Source: Amycolatopsis keratiniphila subsp. keratiniphila (GTDB taxonomy: Bacteria; Actinomycetota; Actinomycetes; Mycobacteriales; Pseudonocardiaceae). From it: a stretch of DNA of 64,000 bases. A model generated the notes under the pieces. The model made no database searches. It saw only the letters and a list, made by a program, of their open reading frames with translations, and was not told where the DNA came from. The position numbers and the translations under genes were made by a program. Numbering within the stretch: the first letter of the stretch is position 1; every line of letters begins with the position of its first letter. The stretch covers positions 67,567 to 131,566 of the forward strand of contig NZ_LQMT02000039.1 of the NCBI RefSeq assembly GCF_001620365.2. Direction: 5' to 3'. Of this stretch, positions 13,705-18,164 are shown one piece after another.

Positions 13705-15969
13705 TCAGGAGATCGTCGCGGTACGAAGGAGTTCTTCGACGCCCGGCGTCCGCCACTCGTCCATCACCACGATTTGCCTGTCCGCAAGGAACCAGATCCG
13801 CTGGGTCACGCTCGTCTCGCCGCTTCCACCCGTCTGTCCACGAGGAACACACTGGATCGTCCACTCCTCGTAGGTCGCCGTCACCCCGCCGACCGGTGCG
13901 GTGGCGGAAGCCGTCCGCGCGGCGTCACCCTCTTGGCGGAGGTCCTTCCGCCCGGCGGCGTTGCAGGCCCGCCCGCCCGCGCTGCGCCGGTAGAACTCCC
14001 CCGGCCGGTACGGCGGCTGCTCGGCGGACCGCTGGGTGTTGTCCGTGACGAGGACGTACTTGCAGTTGAAGTACTTCTTGGGATCCGGGCAGCCCGGGCC
14101 GACGAGCACCTTCTCCAGTCCCTGCGAGACCACGGACCAGTCCTGCGGCAGATGCAGGGTGAGCGCGCCGGCCGAGACGTCGGTGACACCCTGCGCGGGC
14201 GGAGCGGACGACGTGCCTTTGACCACCTTTCCGCTGGTCACGCCGTCGACGAGGGCGGGGTTCAGCAGTCCGCGCACTTTGTCGTAGGGCAGTGTGAGGT
14301 CTTGGACGCTGCAGGCGGTGGTGAAGCCCAGGTCGGTCATGTTGGCCGTGACCTCGAGGGCGGTCGGCGCGAACGCGAGCCACACCTTCGGGTCTCCGGT
14401 GAGGTCGGCCGCCCGGAGCGGCCGGTACGGGAAAATGGTGCTCGGAGGGCCGCACTGCTCCTTGTCGGGCCAGAGGATCTCGGTCAGTTCCCGGAGGCCC
14501 TCGTCGGTGAACTTCCCGGGGGCGAACAGTTCGGCCGGCGTGAGCGCCTTGCCCTCCTTGAGGTCGATGGTCACCGCGGCGCGCCCGTTTCCCCAGGTCG
14601 AGTGGGGTTTGTTGGTGAGGTCGTGGGTGTAGCGCACCGAGAGGTACCGCTCGTTCTCCGTGCGGATGTCGGCCTTCGTGGTCAGCGCGTACGGCCCGCG
14701 TTCCGGCTCAAGCTTGGCGGCGCCGGGGCCGGTTTTGCGGTTCCAGGCGTCGATCGGCGCGGTCAGCGCGTCGTTGACCCTCTTGAGCCAGACTTGATCG
14801 GGCGAACCGGTCACTTCCGGACGTTCGCCGGTGTAGGCGAGGGTCGTGCCGGGCACCGTCCCCGACTCGGTCTTCATGGCGACCTTGAGCGCGACTGCCT
14901 GTTGCGTGGTCGGCGGCGAAGGCGGTGGAGTGCTCGCGTCGGAGAAGACGACCACCGAACCGACCACGGCGGCCGTCGCCGCGATGACGCCGGCGGTGAT
15001 CTTCAGCCCGACCGCGATCCCGCCGGTCGACGCGGCCGCCGCACCCGTTCCGGCGGCGACGCCGGGAGCGGCCGCGGTACCGGCGCTGAGCAGGACCAAC
15101 GGCGTCGCCGCGACGAGCACGCCCGCCGCCTTCGCCAGCCGCGACCAGCCCTTGCGTTCCCATTCGTCGCCGTACTCCGCGCGGGCGACGCGTTCCAATT
15201 CGCTGACGAACGCGAGCGCGTCGACCGGTCGTTTCGACGGGTCCTTCGCCATTCCGAGCGCGACGATCTCGTGTACCGGCTGGGGGACTTCGCCGAACGG
15301 AATGGGCGCGTGTTCGTGCAGCGTGCGCAGCACTTCGGTCTGCTCGGCCTCGTACGGCCGGTGCCCGGCGACGCACTGGAAGAACACGCAGGTGGCGGCG
15401 TAGACGTCGGTCGCGGGAGTGGCCTGCCCGCCGGACCACTGCTCGGGCGCCATGTACGCGGGCGTGCCGACGGACGGGCCGCGTTCGCCCGCCAGGACGG
15501 CCGTGCCGAAGTCGACCAGCTTGCTCTCGCCCGTGTCGGCGACGAGGACGTTGGCCGGTTTGTAGTCCCGGTGGACGACGTTGGCGGAGTGCGCCGCGGC
15601 CAGCCCGAGCAGCGATCCCTTCAGAACGGCGAGCGCGGCTTCGGGTTCGAGAGCGCCTTCGGCCTGAAGGACGGAACGCAGGGAGACGCCGTTGATCGCC
15701 TCCATGACGATCGCCGCGCCCTGCGGCGTCTCGAAGAACTCGTACAGCTTCACGACGTGCGGGCTCGTCACCCGGTGCAGCGCCAGGGCTTCCTGGCGGA
15801 ACGCGTCGAGATAGGCGGGCTCGGCGGCGAAGCGGGAGAAGAGGTATTTGATCGCGACGACGTGGCCGGTGTTGTCCTGGCGCGCGAGCACCACACGGCC
15901 GAAGGTGCCGGTGCCCAGCTGCTCCAGCTCCGTGAAGCCGGGCAGTCTCCACTCGTCGCTTAGTTCCAC
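13705..15969 (-). CDS. Membrane Ser/Thr protein kinase with PdaC/RsiV-like outer domain (copy 2)
   Basis: About 754 residues. The cytoplasmic kinase domain is at about residues 5-270: glycine loop GTGTFGRVV, ATP lysine in VVAIKYL, catalytic loop HRDYKPANV (Tyr in place of the usual Leu/Val), DFG, and [12 protein letters not shown] hydrophobic stretch of about 70 residues (two segments) follows, then a 400-residue outer part. That part has a DUF4163-like block (LAYTGERPEV...RVNDAL) and a DUF3298-like block (LSVRYTHDL, then AVTIDLKEGKALTPAELF), ending in a Cys-containing module YEEWTIQC...SVTQRIWFL. GTG 15969 is preferred: it overlaps the upstream stop and gives a start like the paralogue's. 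It is 45-50% identical to that paralogue by eye in the kinase domain and beyond. Confidence 0.87.
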   Translation of the reverse strand: MELSDEWRLPGFTELEQLGTGTFGRVVLARQDNTGHVVAIKYLFSRFAAEPAYLDAFRQEALALHRVTSPHVVKLYEFFETPQGAAIVMEAINGVSLRSVLQAEGALEPEAALAVLKGSLLGLAAAHSANVVHRDYKPANVLVADTGESKLVDFGTAVLAGERGPSVGTPAYMAPEQWSGGQATPATDVYAATCVFFQCVAGHRPYEAEQTEVLRTLHEHAPIPFGEVPQPVHEIVALGMAKDPSKRPVDALAFVSELERVARAEYGDEWERKGWSRLAKAAGVLVAATPLVLLSAGTAAAPGVAAGTGAAAASTGGIAVGLKITAGVIAATAAVVGSVVVFSDASTPPPSPPTTQQAVALKVAMKTESGTVPGTTLAYTGERPEVTGSPDQVWLKRVNDALTAPIDAWNRKTGPGAAKLEPERGPYALTTKADIRTENERYLSVRYTHDLTNKPHSTWGNGRAAVTIDLKEGKALTPAELFAPGKFTDEGLRELTEILWPDKEQCGPPSTIFPYRPLRAADLTGDPKVWLAFAPTALEVTANMTDLGFTTACSVQDLTLPYDKVRGLLNPALVDGVTSGKVVKGTSSAPPAQGVTDVSAGALTLHLPQDWSVVSQGLEKVLVGPGCPDPKKYFNCKYVLVTDNTQRSAEQPPYRPGEFYRRSAGGRACNAAGRKDLRQEGDAARTASATAPVGGVTATYEEWTIQCVPRGQTGGSGETSVTQRIWFLADRQIVVMDEWRTPGVEELLRTATIS

Positions 15970-18164
15970 TTCGCCTCTTCCAGAATCTTGTCGAGGCCTG
16001 GAGTGTTCCACTCGTCCACGATCACGAGCTGCGTTTTCGGCAGGAACCAGACCCGCTGAGTGACGCTACCGCCGCCGGAACACGTGAGTCGCCACTCTTC
16101 GTAGGCCGCCTTCTTCGTCCCGATCGAGCGAAGCTCCTTCGTCTGGAGGACAGGCGACCCCTGTGTCTCCCCTGGTGCCCCGAGCGAGTGACATGGACGC
16201 GGGCCGGTGGATCGGTTGTACGGCTTGCCCGGTTCATAGGGCGGAGTGGCCGGGTCGACCCGCGAGTTGTCGCTGAAGACGACGCCCGCGCAGCGGAACG
16301 GCTGCGTGCACTGTTCGGCGGTCACCAGGTAGCGCTCGATGGGTTCGCCGGAGAGCAGCCGCCAGTTTTCCGGTGTGGTGATGGTGAAAGCGCCGATGTT
16401 GTCCTCTTTGGTCTTTTTGCCCTGCGTGCCGCCGAGCAGGTGCGCGACCGCGGGACTCAGCAGGCCGCGCAGCCGTTCGTAGGGCACGGTGACGGTCGTC
16501 GGATTGCAGACCATCGGGTACCCGAGCGCGTAGGCCGCGACGCGGAACTCCATCCCGTTCGCCGCGGGCGCCGCCTGCACGATCGCCCCGTCCTGGGTGT
16601 ACCGGTCCGACATCGCTCCCGCGGGAAGGTGCTCCGGTTCCGACGGCGGCGTGGCGAGGCACTCGCCCGGTTCGGCCGAGGCGTACAGCCGGTCTTCCAC
16701 CATCCGCATCCGCACGGCGTTGCCGTCGACGTCGTCGAACAGGCCCGCGGTCGGGATCACGTCGCCGTCGGACAGGTCGATCACGAGGGTCCGGACGGCG
16801 TAGGCGCCGCGGTTCCCGAGCTGGACAGTCTCGACCGAACGTTCGTAGACGACCGAGATCAGCTTGTCGTCCTGGCGCAGGACCTCGGCGGTGGTGGACA
16901 TATGCGGGATGTCGCCGTCGGGCTCCTTTTCCGGCGGGCTCCCCGGCGGCCAGACGCTCGTGAGCCAGTCGTCGATCGGCGCCATCAGCGCCTTGTTGAC
17001 CCGCTCCTCGACCGCCTTGTCCTTCAGCCCGCTGATGCGGACGTACTTCCCGTTGAAGTCGAAGCCGTCGAGCTTCTCGGTGCGGGTGAGGAGGTCGACC
17101 TTCATCGCGGCGACGGTCGCCGTCCGTGGCGGTGCTTCGTCTTCGCTGTTCGTGTCGACCACCACGACCGTCCCGACGGCGACCGCGGTGGCGGCGGCGA
17201 CCGCGGCGGTGATCTTGAGGCCGAGCGCGATCCCGCCGCCGGCGGTGGCCGCTCCGCCCGCGATGACCGGCGCGGCGGCGGTCCCGGCGCCGAGCAGGGC
17301 CAGCGGGGACAGGGCGACCAGGACGCCGGCGCCCTTGGCGAGCCAGTGCCAGCCGTTGCGCTCCCAGTCGTCGCCGTACGCCTTCCTGGCGGACGCCTCC
17401 AGTTCCGCGACGAATTCGGCCGCGCCCGACGGCCGGTGGGCGACGTCCTTCGCCATGCCGCGCGCGATGAGGTCGCGGACCGGTTCGGGCACTTCGCCGA
17501 ACGGGATCGGGGCGTATTCGTGCAGCGTGCGCAGCACTTCGGTCTGCTCCGCCTCGTACGGCCGGTGGCCGACGACGCACTGGAAGAACACGCAGGTCGC
17601 GGCGTAGACGTCGGTCGCGGGGGTGGCGACGCCGCCCGCCCACTGTTCGGGCGCCATGTACGCGGGCGTGCCGGCGGCGACCCCGGTCTGCCCGGCGAGC
17701 ACGGCGATGCCGAAGTCGACGAGCTTGCTCTGCCCCTCGCGGGTGACCAGGACGTTGGCCGGTTTGTAGTCGCGGTGGACGGTGCCCGCGGCGTGCGCGC
17801 CGGCGAGACCGAGCAGCGAGCCTTTGAGGATGGCCAGCGCGGCTTCGGGTTCGAGCTTCTCCTGGCGGCCGAGGATCTCTTTCAGGGAGATTCCGTGAAC
17901 GGCTTCCATGATGATCGCGACCCCTTGCGGGGTCTCCACGAACTGGTGCAGACGGGCGATATGCGGCCCCGAAACGCGGCTCAGGATCTGCGCCTCATGG
18001 CGGAACTCGGCCAGGCGCTGTGGGTCGGCGGCGAACCTCGCATACAGGTATTTGATGGCCACGACCTGCGCGGATTCGTCGTGCCGGGCCAGCACGACCC
18101 GCCCGAATCCACCTTCGCCCAGCGACCCCAGCTCGGTGAAACCCGGCAAGGCCCAGTCGTCCAC
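15960..18164 (-). CDS. Membrane Ser/Thr protein kinase with PdaC/RsiV-like outer domain (copy 1)
   Basis: This 734-residue kinase is the first of a tandem pair. The kinase domain begins at once ([18 protein letters not shown]), with lysine in [20 protein letters not shown] and [11 protein letters not shown]. Two hydrophobic segments lie at about residues 285-350, followed by an extracellular part. There, [12 protein letters not shown]...VNKALMAPI resembles DUF4163 and [13 protein letters not shown] with [17 protein letters not shown] resembles DUF3298, as in PdaC and the lysozyme-sensing anti-sigma factor RsiV. The C-terminal module has paired Cys and [22 protein letters not shown] 18164 is the start. 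Its last 10 bases overlap the second kinase. A cell-envelope sensor role is inferred. Confidence 0.88.

Follow-up and report, generated by a model that had tools for sequence, protein, structure and literature searches.

The window analysed here is a stretch of 64,000 nucleotides from Amycolatopsis keratiniphila subsp. keratiniphila (contig NZ_LQMT02000039.1, positions 67,567 to 131,566). Two adjacent genes on its reverse strand encode Ser/Thr kinases, each with two further domains, named here the N-module and the C-module, the former resembling RsiV, the anti-sigma-V factor of Bacillus subtilis. The first kinase gene, P0002 (15960..18164), encodes 734 amino acids with a kinase domain, two hydrophobic segments, the N-module and the C-module. 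The second, P0001 (13705..16011), is an open frame of 768 amino acids counted from 16011, while a GTG at 15969-15967 is its likely start and gives 754 amino acids. The 10 nt GTGGAACTAA (15960..15969) are then shared between the start of P0001 and the TAA stop of P0002. The two proteins are 50% identical across 752 residues (E 9.7e-197) and their outer parts 33% identical (E 5.1e-41), while the P0002 ectodomain is 93% identical to its counterpart in Amycolatopsis roodepoortensis. Overlaps, signal sequences and charges were assessed by eye, and a comparison of 8 loci showed an equivalent gene overlap in 7 of them (the window, L042, L044, L045, L047, L048 and L049, the exception being L043). This conservation suggests translational coupling, and the two genes are probably coupled. 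An earlier note made from the sequence alone had described two overlapping paralogous kinase genes here, and its coordinates are confirmed.

The kinase domains lie at residues 10-248 of P0002 (17421..18137) and 27-262 of P0001 (15226..15933), both on the reverse strand, as are all other features of the pair. PF00069 matches both (E 7.9e-46 and 1.2e-43). The catalytic motifs are complete in the two proteins, including the G-loop and APE, with HRDYKPAN in P0002, and both are predicted from these motifs to be active kinases. In P0002 the kinase domain is followed by an uncharged hydrophobic stretch (residues 278-316; 17217..17333) and a transmembrane helix (residues 318-336; 17157..17213) with a hydropathy peak of 2.32. 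The corresponding stretch (295-336) and helix (338-357) of P0001 occupy 14941..15129. Next come the N-modules, at 16434..17114 in P0002 and 14233..14898 in P0001, and the C-modules, at 15963..16409 and 13708..14184, respectively.

An AlphaFold2 model of the P0002 ectodomain was built with 28 sequences (predicted local distance difference test, pLDDT, 83.3; predicted template modelling score, pTM, 0.59). When it was compared by Foldseek with 350,542 PDB chains, six matches were found at E<=0.001, all of them RsiV or DUF3298-type proteins. The best was 5jen, the complex of RsiV with lysozyme (two chains, 9.8e-8), followed by 3cyg (two chains, 7.6e-7), 3s5t (1.2e-6) and 4e72 (2.9e-6). Alignment with VIA-align gave Z 15.1 for 3cyg (209 residues, 3.9 A), 13.3 for 4e72 (195 residues, 3.8 A), 12.7 for RsiV in 5jen (195 residues, 4.2 A), 12.6 for 3s5t (197 residues, 3.8 A) and 7.6 for MPT64, 2hhi (156 residues, 3.9 A); absence from the VIA list was not taken as evidence. 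The same four entries, 3CYG, 3S5T, 4E72 and 2HHI, are named as RsiV relatives in the RsiV paper (PMC5014341). The earlier note had let its idea of RsiV- and PdaC-like outer domains depend on structure prediction not giving a fold unrelated to DUF4163/DUF3298, and with P0002 the idea survived this trial. The N-terminal part of Streptococcus pneumoniae PgdA also aligns to residues 18-243 of the model (Z 8.8, 154 residues, 5.6 A), as a weaker echo of PdaC.

Sequence profiles agree with the fold. A profile of 28 N-modules searched against 177,635 PDB sequences found only three at E<=10, namely 3cyg (3.2e-6), RsiV (0.021) and the DUF3298 protein 3s5t (0.13). With a broader profile of 23 rows (A5) the values improved to 4.5e-11 for 3cyg and 1.2e-8 for RsiV, over chain residues 77-264; this profile includes three proteins that are not Ser/Thr kinases (L078-L080), and the RsiV value from N-modules alone is the 0.021 above. 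Two of these three, L079 and L080, exceed the Pfam cut-off for DUF3298 and L078 is a sub-threshold match. By hhalign, the N-module profile aligns to a protein above the DUF3298 cut-off with a probability of 97.0% over 119 columns. The PdaC family PF13739 is detected at E<=1 in 25 of 28 ectodomains, 9.6e-6 being the best value, and, in a wider set, in 23 of 28 N-modules; in the whole-genome search the window copies score 0.045 and 0.72, below the curated cut-off. PF11738 has no match in the window genome at E<=1, so Pfam names alone would miss the N-module, and a search of viral contigs with a 100-residue piece found no relative. Considering the model of P0002 and the profiles together, we conclude that the N-module, which contains one Cys pair, is a genuine RsiV/DUF3298 homologue; for P0001, which has no model of its own, the assignment comes through homology to P0002. 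The DUF4163/DUF3298-like blocks described in the earlier note are thus supported by Foldseek, VIA-align and profiles for P0002, with Pfam scores below the curated cut-offs.

L080 deserves a separate mention: one frame (L080:1-2037, forward strand, genome G564) combines a GHKL ATPase (PF14501, 6.5e-15) with DUF3298 (3.5e-12). It is possibly a second kind of kinase with an outer domain of the N-module type, or two genes in one frame.

The C-module, the last 150 residues, has four Cys in every one of the 20 aligned sequences, and the pattern VTQR-x-WFL...DEW is found in both window proteins, in agreement with the Cys-containing C-terminal module reported before. With Foldseek the P0002 C-module matches PsbP proteins with a probability of 1.00 and E about 1e-3, and with VIA-align it matches PsbP, Mog1, Apa and LpqN at modest scores (Z 5.7-8.6), so that a PsbP/Mog1-like fold is tentative for the window proteins. 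The C-module profile found 0 matches at E<=10 among the PDB sequences, NCBIfam gave 1 chance-level match among 20 members, and Pfam has no sensible family for the C-module or for the different tail that replaces it in the eleven N-module kinases where this was read (L024-L028, L030-L032 and L056-L058; the tail of L029 lies past the end of its locus). Ten of these alternative tails were aligned and modelled (pLDDT 95.6); the model matches cyanobacterial PsbP with Z up to 15.3 (131 residues, 2.4 A), and as modelled the alternative C-module of these other species has the PsbP/Mog1/LpqN fold. In four other genera the kinases L059-L064 and L072 stop directly after the N-module. These swaps and losses indicate that the N-module stays constant and that the C-module can be exchanged. 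The C-module is also found alone in other Amycolatopsis and one further genus, mostly in frames of about 200 amino acids, preceded by a lipobox-like signal in 5 of the 5 whose start was read (L034-L036, L108, L109). The window genome has no convincing stand-alone C-module protein, only one weak frame of 137 amino acids (E 7.8e-4).

Genome counts given here are lower bounds, since only part of the first-look candidates was scored; these candidates numbered per genome up to 19 for the N-module in the family, 7 for profile A2 in the phylum, 9 for A5 in the order, 26 for the C-module and 14 for the kinase query. From 36 Amycolatopsis genomes, 13 have the kinase pair, G004 has a tandem array of three kinases that carry both modules, and one more has a single full-length copy. 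Another 9 have N-module kinases lacking a match to the window C-module, 8 more have the C-module only and 4 have no match. The architecture and the tandem order are therefore conserved in a subset of the genus. In the window's family, the N-module profile matched at least 16 of 150 genomes, spread over 5 of the 46 genera, so that the survey for other kinases with an RsiV-like domain, proposed in the earlier note, had a positive outcome in Amycolatopsis and beyond. At the loci read outside the genus, the N-module shares its frame with a kinase (L056-L064, L072), or the kinase lies just upstream of a frame break (L073, L074). L065, one of the 28 rows of alignment A4 and of the 36 N-modules compared below, reaches the end of its locus before a kinase could come into view. 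In wider searches, the N-module profile A2 matched the window genome and at least three others, the sources of L078-L080, among 396 genomes of the phylum, and A5 matched at least 27 of 298 genomes of the order (12 from the window's family, 14 from another family, f8, and 1 from f15); f8 is probably Mycobacteriaceae, which is a guess.

Some copies depart from the common pattern. In genome G004, the first kinase of the triple array (L081:2747-4774, forward strand) has both outer modules and HRDLKS in place of HRDYKP; its activation segment is shortened and lacks APE, and it may be a pseudokinase. N-module kinase copies at L073 and at L074/L075 (genomes G184 and G168) are broken by a frame break, being either pseudogenes or the result of assembly errors.

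By their kinase parts, too, the N-module kinases belong to one clade. In a tree built after removal of short, duplicate and multi-hit rows, the 30 N-module kinases cluster together with 100/100 support, apart from six other kinases encoded by the window genome, and HRDYKP is found in 29 of the 30. This grouping is the only result taken from the tree, in which the six outgroup kinases are long-branched, the bootstrap had not settled and L131-L136 were left out. With the kinase and membrane part as query, relatives at E<=1e-50 were found in at least 28 of the 150 genomes. Thirteen kinase loci without a detected N-module were queried, of which 5 were read; the other 8 have no match to the pattern HRD.K[PS] and their outer regions were left unread. 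L131, L132 and L134-L136, outside the tree, are HRDYKP kinases with 46-57% identity to P0002 in the kinase part, which have no match to the N-module or the C-module at E<=1 and whose outer regions differ. Pfam recognised only kinase-type families in L131 and L134. As read from these sequences, the kinase would serve as a platform on which sensors can be exchanged. L131 and L132 run into the end of their loci; their outer regions have, by eye, long Gly/Ser/Thr-rich spacers followed by propeller-like-looking sequence.

The earlier note had also suggested a check of the surface with which RsiV contacts lysozyme. The contacts were taken from Table 2 of the RsiV paper (15 of its 16 residues, plus P259), and the tested positions carry the residues named there; E88 is outside the aligned fragment and the alignment is poor at S93, with a gap in 16 of 36 sequences. 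According to the paper, S169, P259 and Y261 are implicated in lysozyme binding by mutation; the S169W change weakened binding by itself, while P259A and Y261A had to be combined to have this effect (PMC5014341). Of the 36 N-modules, 5 retain S169, 13 retain P259, 11 retain Y255 and none has Y261. At S169, P259, Y255 and Y261, P0002 has G, P, Y and V, and P0001 has T, T, T and A. The 16 contacts have a mean identity to RsiV of 0.10, compared with 0.16 for 165 other positions, and random sets of 16 positions are as low in 20% of draws. Within groups, the saddle is slightly less conserved than the rest, with 0.65/0.72 for the P0002 type, 0.62/0.72 for the P0001 type and 0.54/0.61 for the L024 type, in a comparison covering 10, 7 and 10 of the 36 N-modules picked by type. 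Conservation of the contact surface was thus not borne out. Where RsiV has Ala, at position 167, 35 of 36 N-modules carry His or Asn, which gives this loop a signature of its own.

We suggest that P0001 and P0002 are probably envelope receptor Ser/Thr kinases activated by ligand-driven dimerisation. The N- and C-modules outside the membrane would form the sensor, an envelope or secreted molecule (a protein or hydrophobic molecule is our guess over a sugar) would bind it, and binding would change the oligomeric state of the outer parts and bring the kinase domains together. By analogy, the apposed domains would autophosphorylate and then phosphorylate cytoplasmic targets. P0001 and P0002 probably respond to related ligands, and heterodimers of the two may form. 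In mycobacterial receptor kinases, dimerisation of the kinase domain activates, and the sensors are thought to relay the signal by aiding it, according to a review (PMC3601408); we apply this mechanism to the window proteins by analogy. Three points weigh against such a scheme. The relative orientation of the N- and C-modules is uncertain in the P0002 model, given its pTM; the eight neighbouring frames scanned with Pfam, which are part of the window, indicate no ligand, target or pathway; and there are two hydrophobic stretches after the kinase, so that one crossing each would make the modules cytoplasmic. If both stretches crossed, the RsiV-fold region would have a regulatory or docking role inside the cell, and the hydropathy peak of the first stretch of P0002, 1.78 over 19 residues, speaks for it. 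We regard this arrangement as highly improbable, a single full crossing by the first stretch being itself improbable. The tandem relative L081:2747-4774 lacks the first stretch and keeps both modules, so that parity would flip. The Cys pair of the N-module is complete in 35 of 36 sequences and wholly missing from the remaining one, so it is lost only as a pair. The four Cys of the C-module, and the lipobox-like signals ahead of lone C-modules, point to the outside as well. By the positive-inside rule, positive charges mark the cytoplasmic side of a membrane protein, and in L134 KIRLPKRR immediately precedes the last helix. Finally, in 9 of 13 f8 loci, the 9 whose start was available, the homologue of the N-module follows a start that resembles a signal sequence or a lipobox, and the HRDxKP motif is absent from all 13. 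Because of the Cys pairs, the exported-looking homologues, the natural deletion and the charges, the modules are likely outside the membrane.

Even with the modules outside, their partner may be of different kinds. That the saddle of the N-module grips a muramidase as RsiV does, and so switches the kinase on, seems very unlikely to us, even though the best Foldseek match is the RsiV-lysozyme complex and P0002 retains the equivalents of P259 and Y255. The loss of S169 and Y261 from most or all N-modules, contacts not above background and a saddle not above the rest in conservation in the three groups speak against it, as does Rv1980c/MPT64, which has the same fold and did not bind lysozyme in two reports (PMC5014341, PMC6553557), so that the fold alone is not predictive of lysozyme binding. 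Since P259A or Y261A alone left binding by RsiV unweakened in the same source (PMC5014341), the missing residues argue against lysozyme binding without being decisive. Lysozyme sensing by the N-module kinases is not supported by these comparisons, and from the earlier proposal of a kinase that senses muramidase or glycan fragments through an RsiV-like domain, the RsiV-fold kinase stands, on fold and profiles, and the sensing half is left without support, for muramidase in view of the lost contacts. It is a doubtful but related idea that the RsiV-fold saddle, with a chemistry different from that of RsiV, binds a secreted protein such as a wall hydrolase, self-made or from a rival; if true, a Ser/Thr kinase route would sense wall-attacking enzymes directly, while PASTA kinases sense muropeptide debris instead. 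Also unlikely is a reading in which the outer domains chiefly tether the kinase to wall or membrane, or act as a scaffold to which a lipoprotein partner binds, and so position the kinase; clustering and not a soluble ligand would then drive signalling. The fold neighbours of the C-module include mycobacterial LpqN and Apa, and those of the alternative C-module MTC28; stand-alone C-module lipoproteins occur in related species, and localisation-driven activation has been proposed for PASTA kinases (PMC3601408). Such anchoring leaves the replacement of one type of C-module by the other without an explanation, and the window genome offers only the weak 137-amino-acid frame as a stand-alone partner.

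The window kinases share with RsiV (DUF4163 and DUF3298) the fold of the outer domain, the profile homology and a sensor after a membrane helix. They differ in having a cytoplasmic kinase in place of the anti-sigma domain and an extra C-module, and in the contact residues, with S169 mostly and Y261 wholly absent; DUF4179, the family of the juxtamembrane helices in RsiV-type receptors, had no match in a full-length Pfam scan of the two kinases at E<=10. 3cyg, 3s5t, 4e72 and MPT64 have the fold of the N-module, 3cyg being the top PDB sequence match, although they are not fused to kinases and their own functions are unknown or unrelated. The B. subtilis deacetylase PdaC resembles the N-module in its N-terminal domain through PF13739, in spite of window-genome scores below the Pfam cut-off, and there is no polysaccharide deacetylase catalytic domain among the Pfam matches of the window kinases. 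PgdA (2c1i, 2c1g), whose N-terminal part aligns to the N-module, differs more, with a root mean square deviation of 5.6 A, 6% identity and scores far below those of RsiV/DUF3298, and again the window proteins lack the deacetylase domain. In contrast to PsbP, Mog1, LpqN and Apa, the C-module here carries four conserved Cys and forms the end of a kinase ectodomain.

PknB (PASTA), PknD (propeller) and PknH have, like the window proteins, a Hanks-type kinase, a membrane segment and an outer sensor; the difference is in the sensor, which in the window is RsiV-fold plus PsbP-like. The PASTA and PknH sensor families had no Pfam match in the outer regions, and the PknH sensor (4esq) is a weak fold neighbour of the alternative C-module (Z 7.8). 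Assignment to the PASTA kinase (PknB/Stk1) class was tried and rejected, since there are no PASTA repeats and NF033483 scored 183.6 and 185.7 bits against a cut-off of 450. No paper on a Ser/Thr kinase with an RsiV-fold domain was found among those listed, the accessible part of PMC4183432 included, in a search largely outside the subscription literature. The receptor class is a known one, and its sensor here is of a new type.

Around the pair, the Pfam scan of eight neighbouring frames named a phosphoribosyl pyrophosphate (PRPP) synthetase-like protein, an NAD-binding protein, two HpcH/HpaI aldolases and an AAA ATPase. The aldolase frames are at 17908-19344 and 19405-20337 on the forward strand, the first of them divergent from the kinase pair, and an aldolase neighbour also adjoins the kinase, by eye, in L059 and L060 of another genus. 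Three sizeable open frames on the reverse strand (12736-13386, 9740-10942 and 7894-9474) had no Pfam match at 0.001 and may or may not be genes. Two more Ser/Thr kinase domains of the window (48564-49307 and 49841-50647, forward strand) have 33-34% identity to the kinase domain of P0001.

Receptor Ser/Thr kinases are common in actinomycetes, and the structurally known types of outer sensor are few, those with known structure in a 2012 review being PASTA, the propeller and PknH (PMC3601408). Fold and sequence both tie the sensor of P0001 and P0002 to RsiV, whose complex with its ligand has been solved, so that the search for its ligand can begin at a defined surface. In this clade of kinases, one engine appears to be combined with exchangeable outer domains.

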